The position numbers were made by a program, and so were the translations under genes. Positions 1 through 37,759 of a stretch of 37,759 bases of DNA are shown in pieces (the first letter of the stretch is position 1; each line of letters begins with the position of its first letter). The DNA comes from a virus. The stretch lies in IMG/VR virus record IMGVR_UViG_3300036407_000010, positions 1-37,759 of that record. The stretch is one strand, 5' to 3'. The notes below the pieces were generated by a model. It saw nothing but the letters and a program-made list of their open reading frames with translations, searched no databases and was not told the origin of the DNA.

Positions 1-126
1 GCTTCAAAACAAACCAAAAATTGCTTTAAAAGCAAGTTAAATTTTATTTCTAAACATTTGACAAAAGGTAATGAATTGATTTCCAATCAATTTAAAATTT
101 AAACTTTGCGGCCGTGGATATACATA
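1..126. repeat. Terminal direct repeat, copy of 36648-36773
   Basis: These 126 bases are identical to 36648-36773. They contain the leader of the right-end regulator genes, including the palindromes TTGCTTTaAAAGCAA and AATTGATTtccAATCAATT and the GTG start region. After base 126 the sequence departs from the right-hand copy. A repeat of this size at a contig end is what a de Bruijn assembly with k near 127 leaves at a branch point. I therefore read it as an assembly overlap on a circular molecule rather than a biological terminal repeat, though the latter is not excluded. Confidence 0.85.
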
Positions 127-386
127 GAAGTAGTACCCCTCGTATTTCTTTCTTTTTCAAGTTCATCAATATACTTCGAATCAACATTCTCCATTAGCAA
201 AGTAATCAAGAGGCTTTCCATATTCATTAGCCTCATTTCGTGTTCAAACTGCTCTTTTGGCGTAAGGTATTTTTTCTTCGTATCATAAATGTCTCTCTCC
301 TGCCTTAACGTTTCGCGTAAATGATTTATGAGGTCATCCGGATTATATCCCTTCTTAATCAACGTCTCGGATATGCTATTGCTCAT
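99..386 (-). CDS. Hypothetical protein, C-terminus altered at contig junction
   Basis: This 95-residue frame has no recognised family; it is charged and probably helical. The first ~71 residues, ending LLMENVDSK, are likely the native protein. In the right-end copy of the same DNA (37633-37759) the frame stops directly after ENVDSK. Here it continues through 17 residues, KYIDELEKERNTRGTTS, which are also the C-terminal coiled-coil part of the regulator at 37274-37666, and then stops inside the duplicated leader. The last ~24 codons are therefore a product of the odd junction at 127-176. On the closed circle this gene converges on, and overlaps by about 35 bp, the 37274-37666 gene. Its start is 36 bp from the large hairpin at 422-465. 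Confidence 0.55.
   Translation of the reverse strand: MSNSISETLIKKGYNPDDLINHLRETLRQERDIYDTKKKYLTPKEQFEHEMRLMNMESLLITLLMENVDSKYIDELEKERNTRGTTSMYIHGRKV
127..176. repeat. Inverted copy of 37589-37638
   Basis: These 50 bases are the exact reverse complement of 37589-37638. They sit between the leader repeat (1-126) and the 172-298 repeat. The join on the right uses the 5-base microhomology TACTT (172-176). In the right-end copy, AAGTA (37589-37593) and TACTT (37633-37637) form an inverted pair around the same segment. No homology is visible at the left join (126/127). Confidence 0.8.
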
Positions 387-2084: not shown

Positions 2085-2378
2085 CTACACCAATGCTTTT
2101 ACTTTATCAACTTCTTTCGACCCCTTTTTGGCTTGCCACAGATCATAACTGGTCTGCATGTTCATCCACAAGTAAGGCGTATTCCTGAAAGCCCTGCTAA
2201 GCTTTAATGCCATGGCAGGAGAAATGCCTGCCTTGCCGTTAATGATGTCCGACAAACGAGGCCTGCTAATAAGTAATTTTTCTGCAGCTTGGGTAATGCT
2301 CAGCCCAAGCGGCTCCAAGTAAAATTCGAGCAGAATCTCACCAGGGTGTGGGGGATTGTGCTGAATAAAGTCTTCCAT
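2085..2378 (-). CDS. higA: HigA-type antitoxin
   Basis: This 97-residue protein has the HigA/VapI hallmark N-terminus: PHPGEIL followed by an acidic-hydrophobic helix. An XRE-type helix-turn-helix follows at about residues 28-65 (TQAAEKLLISRPRLSDIINGK), then the conserved FRNTPYLWMNMQ segment. Proteins of this family bind and neutralise HigB and repress their own promoter. The gene lies 13 bases downstream of the toxin gene, in the toxin-first order typical of higBA. The pair probably stabilises the prophage or takes part in phage defence. Confidence 0.93.
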   Translation of the reverse strand: MEDFIQHNPPHPGEILLEFYLEPLGLSITQAAEKLLISRPRLSDIINGKAGISPAMALKLSRAFRNTPYLWMNMQTSYDLWQAKKGSKEVDKVKALV

Positions 2379-2391
2379 TTATAATTTTCTC

Positions 2392-2673
2392 TTAATGCGT
2401 ATCTAAGTAATCTATATCGTAAGCATTACCGTTCGTGAACTGAAATACTATTCGAAAATTTCCCGACACATCAACGGAGTACCAGCCAGCATAGGGGGGT
2501 GCTTTTAATTTATGCAGCCTGAATGCTGGTGTATTGATATCCTCGAGTTGGTGTGCGTTGTGGATTAGATATAGCAATTTCTTAATCTTGCTTAATCTTT
2601 CCTGAGGTAGCTTCTTGCTTTTCTCCGTGACAAAGAACTCCTGGAGCCCCTTGTGTTTGAAACTTTTGATCAT
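2392..2673 (-). CDS. higB: HigB/RelE-family mRNA interferase toxin
   Basis: This 93-residue protein has the RelE/HigB fold signature: FKHKGLQEFF at the N-terminus, the central LHKLKAPPYAGWYSVDVSGNFR block, and IVFQFTNGNAYDIDYLDTH at the C-terminus. HigB toxins cleave mRNA on translating ribosomes. The arginines and histidines of the GNFR and YLDTH blocks are where family members carry functional residues. It is the first gene of the higBA operon and is divergent from hicAB, with a shared 203-bp regulatory gap. Confidence 0.93.
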   Translation of the reverse strand: MIKSFKHKGLQEFFVTEKSKKLPQERLSKIKKLLYLIHNAHQLEDINTPAFRLHKLKAPPYAGWYSVDVSGNFRIVFQFTNGNAYDIDYLDTH

Positions 2674-2729
2674 TCTAATGCTGTTTCGAAAAATTCAGAA
2701 ATTTGTTTCATCGGTATTGAGTTTGTGTT

Positions 2730-2761
2730 CAAAATTAGTTAATGGTTACGTGTTCCGTAAC
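2730..2761 (-). promoter_or_regulatory. higBA promoter box and operator palindrome
   Basis: Reading minus, TAATTTTG (2737-2730) matches the Bacteroidota -7 consensus TAnnTTTG exactly. Just upstream is the palindrome GTTACG-N5-CGTAAC (2745-2761), placed where a repressor such as HigA would block RNA polymerase. A good -33 TTTG is not visible. Confidence 0.55.
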
Positions 2762-2828
2762 ACAGCACGAATGTAACTAAAAGAATGGAAATTATTCGAA
2801 TTTTCTTGCCGATATTTATCAAACTTTT

Positions 2829-2860
2829 TTTGCAACTAGATTTCAGTTGCTGTACCTTTA
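2829..2860 (+). promoter_or_regulatory. hicAB promoter with embedded operator palindrome
   Basis: TTTG (2829-2832) and TACCTTTA (2853-2860) are separated by 20 bases, fitting the Bacteroidota -33/-7 layout with one mismatch in the -7 box. Between them lies the inverted repeat GCAACT-N7-AGTTGC (2832-2850). The predicted transcript starts a few bases before the ATG at 2877. Autorepression by HicB or the HicAB complex is the simplest reading. Confidence 0.55.
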
Positions 2861-2876
2861 CTACTGGCAAACAAGT

Positions 2877-3128
2877 ATGAGTAAGTTTCAAAAAGCACTG
2901 AATCGCCTGTTATCTAGACCCTCCGATTTAACATACGATGAGTTAAAGATGATCCTGACGAGTTTCGGTTATGAAGAAATAATGGGAAAGGGCTCTGGGA
3001 GGAAGTTTATCCACTCAGAAACACAACACCTGATTGTTAATTTACATAAGCCACATCCAAGGCCTATTATTAAGATGTACATAATTAAGCGCGTAATTGA
3101 AAAACTATTTGAACAAAATTTAATATGA
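2877..3128 (+). CDS. hicA: HicA-family toxin
   Basis: This 83-residue protein fits the HicA double-stranded-RNA-binding-like fold. It has the LTYDELKMILTSFGYEE helix, the GKGSGRKFIH strand, and the LHKPHPRPIIKMYIIKRVIEKL C-terminal segment. HicA toxins are ribosome-independent mRNA interferases. The His of the classical GSHH motif is replaced here (GSGRKF), as in a common HicA subgroup; the downstream His of FIH may serve instead, which is unproven. The start at 2877 is chosen because an in-frame start at 2847 would fall within the promoter. The gene overlaps hicB by 4 bases, indicating translational coupling. Confidence 0.9.
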   Translation: MSKFQKALNRLLSRPSDLTYDELKMILTSFGYEEIMGKGSGRKFIHSETQHLIVNLHKPHPRPIIKMYIIKRVIEKLFEQNLI

Positions 3129-3685
3129 AGAATACTTTAGAATATAAAGGTTATCAAGCCAAAGTTGAATTTAGTGTAGAGGATGATGTGCTCTTTGGAG
3201 AGCTATCGGGTATAAATGATCTAGTTACTTTTGAAGGGGACAACGTCCAAGAACTTAAGCAGGCGTTTCACGATGCTGTTGATGAATATTTAGAACTTTG
3301 CAAGCAACAAGGTAAGACTCCAGAAAAAGCTTATAAAGGAAGTTTTAATGTAAGAATTAAGCCCGAGACCCATCGTCTAGCAGCTCGAAAGGCTGAAGCA
3401 CTGGGAATTTCGTTGAACGAATTTGTTGAGAAAGCTATAACGAGCCAAGTAAATGATGAAGCTCCTTCGAAAAACGAAGTTGTAAGTGGGGTTAGATCCT
3501 ACCCTGAAGTAATTTATGGCGGGTCGTACGTAAAGAGAACAGAAGTACTACAAGTAAAACCAAGGAAACAAAAAGTTGTTTCTATCAAAACCAAATCCGG
3601 CAGAGGAAAAGGTTCTGACCCGGAAGATAGAAGAGCGAAAGATTCTGACAGAGAAGATAGAAGATACGCAAGCAAAAAAGGTTAA
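3125..3685 (+). CDS. hicB: HicB-family antitoxin with long basic tail
   Basis: This 186-residue protein has an N-terminal HicB partial RNase-H-like domain (YKGYQAKVEF, VLFGELSGINDLVTFEGDNVQELKQAF) that binds HicA. A ribbon-helix-helix DNA-binding domain follows at about residues 73-108 (FNVRIKPETHRLAARKAEALGISLNEFVEKAI). Residues ~115-186 form an extra tail rich in Lys, Arg, Asp and Ser with a loose EDRR repeat. The tail makes it longer than typical HicB proteins. It is the second gene of hicAB, directly left of the attP arm region, so it would lie at one prophage end after integration. Confidence 0.9.
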   Translation: MKNTLEYKGYQAKVEFSVEDDVLFGELSGINDLVTFEGDNVQELKQAFHDAVDEYLELCKQQGKTPEKAYKGSFNVRIKPETHRLAARKAEALGISLNEFVEKAITSQVNDEAPSKNEVVSGVRSYPEVIYGGSYVKRTEVLQVKPRKQKVVSIKTKSGRGKGSDPEDRRAKDSDREDRRYASKKG

Positions 3686-3912: not shown

Positions 3913-5070
3913 ATGATCAGTATACGCTTGTACCAGGCAAAAGGGAAAATGCGTGCAGATGGCAAGGCCCCTATCTTCTATGTTCTAGCCAAAGGGTCCG
4001 AACGTATCTACATTCTCACAAAAAAATATTTAAAGACAGACTGTTTTGACAACAGTAAAGGACTTGTTCTAAAGGGCGCCGACAATAGCATTAAACTGAA
4101 CGCGTTCTTTAAAAGGCAGATGACAAGGCTGGATGACATTGTCATTGATTTGTCAAATGAAGGCAAGGAGGTTACGTTGAAGAAAGTAAAGGCGATCTTT
4201 ACAAATGACCTATCGAAAGACTTTCTCTCCTTTGCATATACCGAGCTCAAGAACCAAAAACATCTCATTAGTCCCAAAACGTATTTAGGTTATTGGGAAC
4301 GTCTTAACGTCCTCAAGAAATACTGCAATGGCGAATTGCCATTCAAGTCAATAACTTATGAATGGCTTGCTCTGTATCAGCATGATTGTGTCCTTAAGGG
4401 GCGAAAACCAAATGGCTATTACCAAGATTTCGCTACCATAAAGAAATTTTGGAAAATAGCTTTTTTAAAAGGTGAAGTTAGACACAACCCTTTTAACAAT
4501 TTCAAACTAAAAACGGAAGAAACTCAGCGTAATTGGCTTACGAAGGAGGAACTAATTTTACTCAATAACCTTTTACTAACTGATAAAATTACAGAAGCAG
4601 TAAAGAACACTCTTAGGCATTTTTTATTCAGCTGCTTTACAGGACTACGGTTTGGCGACAAAAAGGCTTTTAGCAACGCAAACATCGTCAATGATCGTAT
4701 TTCGTTAAGAACCAAGAAACGGGAGAAGTATATCAACATTGCATTTAATGATCAAGCAAGAGAACTCTTACCTTTTGTCCTGGAGCGTAAATTGAAAGAG
4801 AAGAGTAACAGAGTAACTAAGGATCTAAAGTTATGTATGGAGTCCGTTAACATTACCAAACACATAACATACCACTGCAGCCGTCATACATTTGCAGTAA
4901 ACTCGTTACTATTGGGAATTGATATTGTTACTGTGAGAGATTGGTTAGGCCATAAAAGCGTTACTACAACGGAGATCTATGCGAAAATTGCAGATCAATT
5001 CCGAGATGAAAATATGAAGAAGTGGAGCAACTTTTATGGAACGGAAGAAAAAGTACTTGAAGAAATTTAA
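3913..5070 (+). CDS. int: Tyrosine recombinase (phage integrase)
   Basis: This 385-residue integrase catalyses site-specific recombination between the adjacent attP and a host tRNA gene. An N-terminal arm-binding-like domain (residues 1-~100) is followed by a SAM-like core-binding domain (~105-205) and the catalytic domain (~207-370). Catalytic residues are visible: Arg246 in TGLRFGD, a candidate Lys near 268-272 in RTKKREK, His321 and Arg324 in HCSRHTF, His347 in WLGHKS, and the nucleophile Tyr356 in TTTEIYAKI. The layout resembles Bacteroidota integrases. It is followed by a terminator shared with the convergent tail operon. Confidence 0.96.
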   Translation: MISIRLYQAKGKMRADGKAPIFYVLAKGSERIYILTKKYLKTDCFDNSKGLVLKGADNSIKLNAFFKRQMTRLDDIVIDLSNEGKEVTLKKVKAIFTNDLSKDFLSFAYTELKNQKHLISPKTYLGYWERLNVLKKYCNGELPFKSITYEWLALYQHDCVLKGRKPNGYYQDFATIKKFWKIAFLKGEVRHNPFNNFKLKTEETQRNWLTKEELILLNNLLLTDKITEAVKNTLRHFLFSCFTGLRFGDKKAFSNANIVNDRISLRTKKREKYINIAFNDQARELLPFVLERKLKEKSNRVTKDLKLCMESVNITKHITYHCSRHTFAVNSLLLGIDIVTVRDWLGHKSVTTTEIYAKIADQFRDENMKKWSNFYGTEEKVLEEI

Positions 5071-36647: not shown

Positions 36648-36773
36648 GCTTCAAAACAAACCAAAAATTGCTTTAAAAGCAAGTTAAATTTTATTTCTAA
36701 ACATTTGACAAAAGGTAATGAATTGATTTCCAATCAATTTAAAATTTAAACTTTGCGGCCGTGGATATACATA
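36648..36773 (+). promoter_or_regulatory. Regulator leader with two palindromes
   Basis: This copy is the leader of the tandem XRE genes. It contains TTGCTTT-A-AAAGCAA (36667-36681) and AATTGATT-TCC-AATCAATT (36721-36739), both perfect, plus ACATTTGACAAAAGG before them. Both palindromes are good operator candidates for the two regulators. The GTG start of the first regulator is at 36761. Confidence 0.65.
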
Positions 36774-37225
36774 TCGGCAAAGAGATTCACAAAATCTATA
36801 AGCAAAGAAGGTTTGGACAGGCGGAATTAGCCCAACTGATTAATACAAGCCCCCAAAATGTGCATGCGCTTTTCAAAAGAAAGTCTATTGACACTTCACA
36901 GTTACTGATCATAAGTAAAGCGCTGAATTTTGACTTCTTTTCTTTGTACTCTAAGGAGTTAACGCTGGAGAAAATTAATAGTGCTCAGGGTAGTCTTCTG
37001 GATGAATGCAAGAAAGAAAAACAGATATTAGAAGATAAATTTAAGCTGCAAACCGAGAATGCTACAAATCAACGTAAGTACATCGAGATGCTTGAAGATA
37101 AATTTAATTCGAATGATCAGTATAATAGGGGCATTATCGAAAAGAAAGATGAACTAATGAAGAAGTTGCAGGACTATACTGCAGCACTAGAAAAAAAATT
37201 AGAGAAGTACGAGAAGAAATCTTAA
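36761..37225 (+). CDS. XRE-type regulator with C-terminal coiled coil, first of tandem pair
   Basis: This 154-residue protein begins with GTG (MDIHIGKEIHKIYKQRRFGQ). Residues ~5-60 form an XRE/lambda-repressor-like helix-turn-helix (AELAQLINTSPQNVHALFKRKSIDTSQLLIISKALN). A charged coiled coil (~75-154) follows and probably mediates dimerisation. It is paralogous to the downstream gene; the HTH parts align without gaps. The GTG is supported by matching the ATG of the paralogue (MEIHIG). A phage repressor or lysis-lysogeny regulator is the simplest role. Confidence 0.8.
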   Translation: MDIHIGKEIHKIYKQRRFGQAELAQLINTSPQNVHALFKRKSIDTSQLLIISKALNFDFFSLYSKELTLEKINSAQGSLLDECKKEKQILEDKFKLQTENATNQRKYIEMLEDKFNSNDQYNRGIIEKKDELMKKLQDYTAALEKKLEKYEKKS

Positions 37226-37273
37226 GGTTTTTCTAAATTTCCATTCAGGAATAATTTTTTAACTTCCCCGATA

Positions 37274-37666
37274 ATGGAAATACATATTGGGAGAGAAATC
37301 AAGCGCGTTTTAAGGAACAAAGAGATTAAAGCTGCTCACATCGCAAAGGTTATTAGCACCACTCCCCAAAACGTTAACGCACTTTTTAAAAGGCCATCTA
37401 TTGATTCACATCAGTTGTTTATTATTAGCAAGGCTGTAGCCGTAGACCTTTTTATATTGTACTCGAGTAGGCTGCAAGCAGACAAAAACGAAGAAGTACA
37501 ACGTGACTTGCTACAAGAATGCAAGCAAGAGAAACATTCACTTGAAGATAAATTTCAAATGTTAAATGACATTATTTTTTATCAACGAAAGTATATTGAT
37601 GAACTTGAAAAAGAAAGAAATACGAGGGGTACTACTTCGAATCAACATTCTCCATTAGCAAAGTAA
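37274..37666 (+). CDS. XRE-type regulator with coiled coil, second of tandem pair
   Basis: This 130-residue protein starts MEIHIGREIKRVLRNKEIKAAHIAKVISTTPQNVNALFKRPSIDS and continues with SHQLFIISKAVAVDLFILYSS, the same fold as its neighbour. The coiled coil contains ECKQEKHSLEDKFQML and the KYIDELEKERNTRGTTS block, which appears inverted at 127-176. The end, NQHSPLAK, lies in the repeated DNA 37633-37759 and overlaps the convergent gene that is split at the left end of the window. Duplicate repressor-like genes can bind different operators. Confidence 0.8.
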   Translation: MEIHIGREIKRVLRNKEIKAAHIAKVISTTPQNVNALFKRPSIDSHQLFIISKAVAVDLFILYSSRLQADKNEEVQRDLLQECKQEKHSLEDKFQMLNDIIFYQRKYIDELEKERNTRGTTSNQHSPLAK

Positions 37667-37759
37667 TCAAGAGGCTTTCCATATTCATTAGCCTCATTTC
37701 GTGTTCAAACTGCTCTTTTGGCGTAAGGTATTTTTTCTTCGTATCATAAATGTCTCTCT
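37633..37759. repeat. Terminal direct repeat, copy of 172-298
   Basis: These 127 bases are identical to 172-298. The length equals a typical large assembly k-mer. Joining the two copies closes the genome into a circle and places the 3' end of the second regulator opposite the convergent small gene whose N-terminal part is at 386-172. Confidence 0.85.

Follow-up and report, generated by a model that had tools for sequence, protein, structure and literature searches.

The start of an IMG/VR phage contig is most likely a rare rearranged side branch joined ahead of an ordinary circular genome

Introduction

Phage mutants that have lost repressor function can be viable on sensitive hosts. Rearranged sequences are also produced by copying errors. 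Among 475 chimeras formed by MDA, 85% are inverted with an intervening deletion, mostly joining points less than 10 kb apart, and 93.5% of the inverted chimeras spanning less than 10 kb show at least 2 nt of microhomology (PMC1855051). As for assembly, the JGI metagenomes that are the source of IMG/VR have been assembled using metaSPAdes at k = 33, 55, 77, 99 and 127 (PMC10604447), and this assembler disconnects, rather than deletes, low-coverage edges lying beside high-coverage alternatives (reviewed in PMC8021871).

Here we describe a viral stretch of 37,759 nucleotides, positions 1 to 37,759 of IMG/VR record IMGVR_UViG_3300036407_000010 (hereafter the window). Its start is most likely a rare rearranged side branch joined ahead of an ordinary 37.5 kb circular genome. 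The phage is temperate in type and encodes a tyrosine integrase (3913-5070).

Results

The two ends of the window share two perfect direct repeats and one perfect inverted repeat, around a pair of XRE genes. The features are listed below.

1 to 126, plus strand: second copy of L, the leader and first XRE1 codons; identical to 36648-36773 (126 nt, 100% identity); the k-1 = 126 nt common to arm B and the main path, reproduced by the graph
127 to 176, plus strand: X', the segment found only in form B, 50 nt inverted from the 3' part of XRE2; exact reverse complement of 37589-37638 (50/50 nt)
172 to 298, plus strand: Y, a 127-nt graph vertex where arms A and B converge; identical to 37633-37759 (127/127 nt)
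99 to 386, minus strand: ORF Y, 95 aa as read in form B, without a homologue in the collections named below
36648 to 36773, plus strand: L in the native form A, with the leader, the XRE1 start codon and a palindrome at 36721-36739
36761 to 37225, plus strand: XRE1, 154 aa, HTH and coiled-coil, matching the phrog_2439 transcriptional regulator (4.9e-6); absent from form B beyond its first codons
37274 to 37666, plus strand: XRE2, 130 aa, paralogue of XRE1; absent from form B except for the inverted X
37589 to 37638, plus strand: X in native orientation, inside XRE2, flanked by AAGTA / TACTT
37633 to 37759, plus strand: the last 127 nt of the contig, repeating 172-298; end of the loop edge

The second-longest inverted repeat within the window has 28 nt at 75% identity. 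Chance is ruled out for a perfect inverted repeat of 50 nt together with perfect direct repeats of more than 100 nt.

The leader L is linked to region Y by two routes, one at each end of the contig. These alternative paths had been proposed in the first-pass annotation and are borne out by the exact repeats and the inverted repeat. Route A, at the contig end, takes in XRE1, XRE2 and X, and its circle measures 37,461 bp. At the contig start, route B passes through the 50 inverted bases, and the resulting circle would measure 36,647 bp, in agreement with the earlier figure of about 36647 bp. The annotation also had route B skipping both XRE genes (36774-37588), which is correct for the 815 nt that form B lacks and not for their edges, since form B retains codons 1-4 of XRE1 and about 17 codons of XRE2, the latter inverted. 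Form B carries one additional C, so the net difference between the two forms is 814.

In terms of junctions, the arm B join is inverted, with an intervening deletion, and its joined points lie 865 bp apart. Junction 1 (L to X') is blunt, with 0 nt in common, as are 55% of random joins. Junction 2 (X' to Y) has 5 nt in common, TACTT (172-176), with the exact point lying anywhere within 171-176; at least 5 nt are shared in 0.6% of random inverted joins in this window. The end repeats are unequal, 126 nt and 127 nt, and this pair turns out to be diagnostic of the origin of the layout.

XRE1 and XRE2 are paralogues, with 50% identity over 117 aa, and match transcriptional regulator families weakly. 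Their homology continues through the left edge of X (NQRKYIEMLEDKFNS vs YQRKYIDELEKERNT) and through the L/XRE1 breakpoint (GTGGATATACATATCGGC vs ATGGAAATACATATTGGG). Because this paralogy spans both breakpoints, each is continuous native sequence in form A, and the alignment identifies form A as the native form and B as a derived inversion plus deletion. ORF Y stops after 71 aa in form A (...MENVDSK) and gains 24 codons in form B, from the inverted X' and L; the frame is expected to be retained by one join in three, and the in-frame extension is probably chance. No useful match was found for ORF Y in IMG/VR or named phages, nor for XRE2 in IMG/VR, GTDB genomes, named phages or plasmids, and relatives are therefore no guide to the conservation of either arrangement. 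Likewise, close homologues of the XRE1/XRE2 pair were not found in the collections searched.

The leader contains a palindrome with perfect 8-bp arms, AATTGATT-TCC-AATCAATT (36721-36739 and 74-92), of which the window has no further copies beyond those in the two copies of L. It is a candidate operator. Among related phages, the gene directly before the integrase in G002 (IMGVR_UViG_3300020020_000102) is a CI-type repressor with a Peptidase_S24 domain. The related record G001 has a CI-like HTH protein with a coiled coil a few genes before its integrase, followed by homologues of window ORFs 471-827 and 831-1475. XRE1 and the G001 repressor gave no alignment, and their equivalence is positional only. 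Given this shared repressor position and the leader palindrome, XRE1 and XRE2 are probable immunity regulators. As a pair (36761-37666), they form tandem paralogous HTH/coiled-coil regulators without the S24 domain seen in G002.

As for the wider genome, the terminase is closest, among named phages, to those of Polaribacter, Microcystis, Cellulophaga and Flavobacterium phages, and no prophages related by terminase were found in GTDB genomes. Two adjacent toxin-antitoxin modules, HigB/HigA on the minus strand and HicA/HicB on the plus strand, lie just before the integrase (2085-3685). G002 encodes a reverse transcriptase (RVT_1, 3.9e-19; L012:13088-14810). Three related 82-nt repeats lie next to it, and two of these fall within adjacent genes that share a C-terminal WFEMNGSSGFRF region. 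The locus resembles a diversity-generating retroelement that has two target genes, and the window showed no counterpart.

A relative of the window phage, IMGVR_UViG_3300049018_000037 (terminase 62% identical), ends in a clean terminal repeat of exactly 127 nt. A set of 80 IMG/VR microvirus contigs (L017-L096), unrelated to the window phage, served as control. End repeats of 127, 126, 99 and 98 nt recur among them, and at least 9 of the 80 have a layout like that of the window, starting on one arm of a bubble and ending on the other. The arms are collinear, equal-length, near-identical variants in all nine, and inverted in none (0/9). No inverted repeat of at least 20 nt was found in the 52 listed microvirus contigs that have no plain terminal repeat. 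The layout is therefore ordinary, and it does not by itself explain the content of arm B. The contigs that start and end on different arms of a strain bubble (at least nine) have hidden duplicated ends of about 20-127 nt, missed by a plain end-repeat test.

De Bruijn graphs were built from circle A plus arm B at seven values of k (119, 125, 126, 127, 128, 129 and 141). Only with k=127, and only once the single 128-mer linking the main path to arm B is removed, do the unitigs resolve into a tip of 298 nt and a loop of 37,588 nt, and their concatenation is the 37,759-base window, letter for letter. The six other values (119, 125, 126, 128, 129, 141) do not reproduce it. The overlap is exactly k (127) at the contig end and exactly k-1 (126) at the start. 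An edge missing where B departs from the main path, combined with the edge disconnection practised by metaSPAdes, would make B the minority path, and arm B is probably of low coverage, judging by the cut edge alone. Its second end was left uncut, though a uniformly weak arm might have been cut there as well.

We read the record as a linear walk through an assembly graph built at k=127, the underlying phage genome (form A) being a circle of 37,461 bp. The first 298 bases would belong to arm B, a weak side branch. The assembler would have severed one of its ends from the main path before placing it as a left extension of the closed loop.

Furthermore, arm B contains 171 specific 128-mers, and their tiling takes at least eight differently placed 150-nt reads if these are unmerged, a minimum that drops if smaller-k contigs or merged reads contributed. 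A single chimeric read is thus an unlikely source, and the arm B molecule would have been amplified or genuinely present in several copies. The 19-mer common to both junction forms was not found elsewhere in IMG/VR, and a foldback-prone hairpin at X was not supported (z = +0.75).

Discussion

Arm B derives from form A, probably via two template switches, most likely during amplification or library making. The copied strand would leave the XRE2/Y boundary and continue on the opposite strand of X (50 nt), at the 5-nt match AAGTA/TACTT. It would then jump again, without any match, from X to the XRE1 leader 865 bp away, and the product would be an inversion with an intervening deletion. Such a short-range product is the standard outcome of 3'-end switching in strand-displacement amplification (PMC1855051). 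One blunt junction and one with 5 nt of microhomology are what template switching produces. The blunt junction 1 is less typical of MDA chimeras and counts against that origin. A chimera had been the fallback reading in the first-pass annotation; it stands, and an in-vitro chimera is now the favoured origin of arm B, which we regard as reasonably probable.

The main competitor is a real accidental mutant, in which one phage lineage lost 36774-37588 by template switching during replication in vivo, removing both genes of the repressor locus, and which could be of the clear-plaque type. The several molecules that must represent B would suit such a mutant, as would the identity of L and Y between B and A, expected of a fresh one. 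The locus matches the position of the CI/S24 repressor in the two related phages, and junctions of 0-5 nt are also compatible with illegitimate recombination in vivo. On the other hand, the assembly fingerprint suggests that B is weak, a double switch with a 50-nt flip exceeds what deletion of a repressor requires, and the shared 19-mer has no second occurrence in IMG/VR. Weighing these points, we consider a real mutant possible, though unlikely. Should B exist in vivo, it would amount to an ordinary deletion of the repressor locus in an uncultured temperate phage. It is quite doubtful that a repressor-less replicating subpopulation of a temperate Bacteroidota-type phage coexists here with its parent and arises repeatedly by template switching on X.

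Two further readings appear highly improbable. One is a programmed phase switch, also raised in the first-pass annotation, in which inversion or removal of the XRE cassette by a recombinase would alternate a lysogeny-capable form with a lytic one. A 5-nt inverted repeat does bound X', the phage has its own tyrosine integrase, and the Y reading frame is left open in the B path. Nevertheless, the loss of the XRE genes (36774-37588) is irreversible on the same molecule, and junction 1 has no common base, whereas conservative site-specific recombination requires a shared core. The three breakpoints lack repeats of recombination-site length, with only the 5-nt repeat at the ends of X, and the X region has no notable hairpin, as given by its z of +0.75. 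Nothing similar was seen in relatives, nor a second copy of either junction form in IMG/VR, and the proposed switch is not upheld. The other reading makes B the ancestral arrangement, or that of another strain, and A the result of an insertion of the XRE pair. In its favour, ORF Y reads on in frame for 24 codons in B. However, homology to XRE1 on either side of the breakpoint (QRKYIEMLEDKFNS / QRKYIDELEKERNT) places X within XRE2, the two genes also match at their starts, across breakpoint 1, and the flanks of A and B are 100% identical. B as the ancestral form is rejected on this paralogue homology across the breakpoints.

Most likely, then, the contig start reflects an artefact of copying or a mutant that arose once, and not a genetic switch. 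Contigs with two paths in public virus collections can mimic such a switch, and the pair of k and k-1 overlaps (127/126) allows the sequence alone to reveal a disconnected side branch and the contig end on which it lies. The genome to use from this record is form A, 172-37632.

Compared with known systems, arm B resembles invertase/recombinase phase-variation cassettes in having an inverted segment adjoining regulatory DNA, but here there are no paired sites and no reversible inversion, and genes are deleted. Like clear-plaque repressor-deletion mutants of temperate phages, form B lacks both genes of the repressor locus, with the remaining genome unchanged; those mutants are replicating lineages, whereas B is known from assembled sequence. 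The likeness to MDA or strand-displacement chimeras (Lasken and Stockwell 2007, PMC1855051) extends to the inverted segment, the intervening deletion, the distance of less than 1 kb and the 5-nt priming match at one junction. The differences are that two switches lie 50 nt apart here and one junction is matchless. Finally, the exact overlaps of k at the end and k-1 at the start are those of metaSPAdes at k=127 with a disconnected weak edge, and the layout with one arm at the head and the other at the tail is also found in 9 of 80 unrelated IMG/VR contigs. Those nine are collinear substitution variants, while the weak arm here is an inversion plus a deletion.
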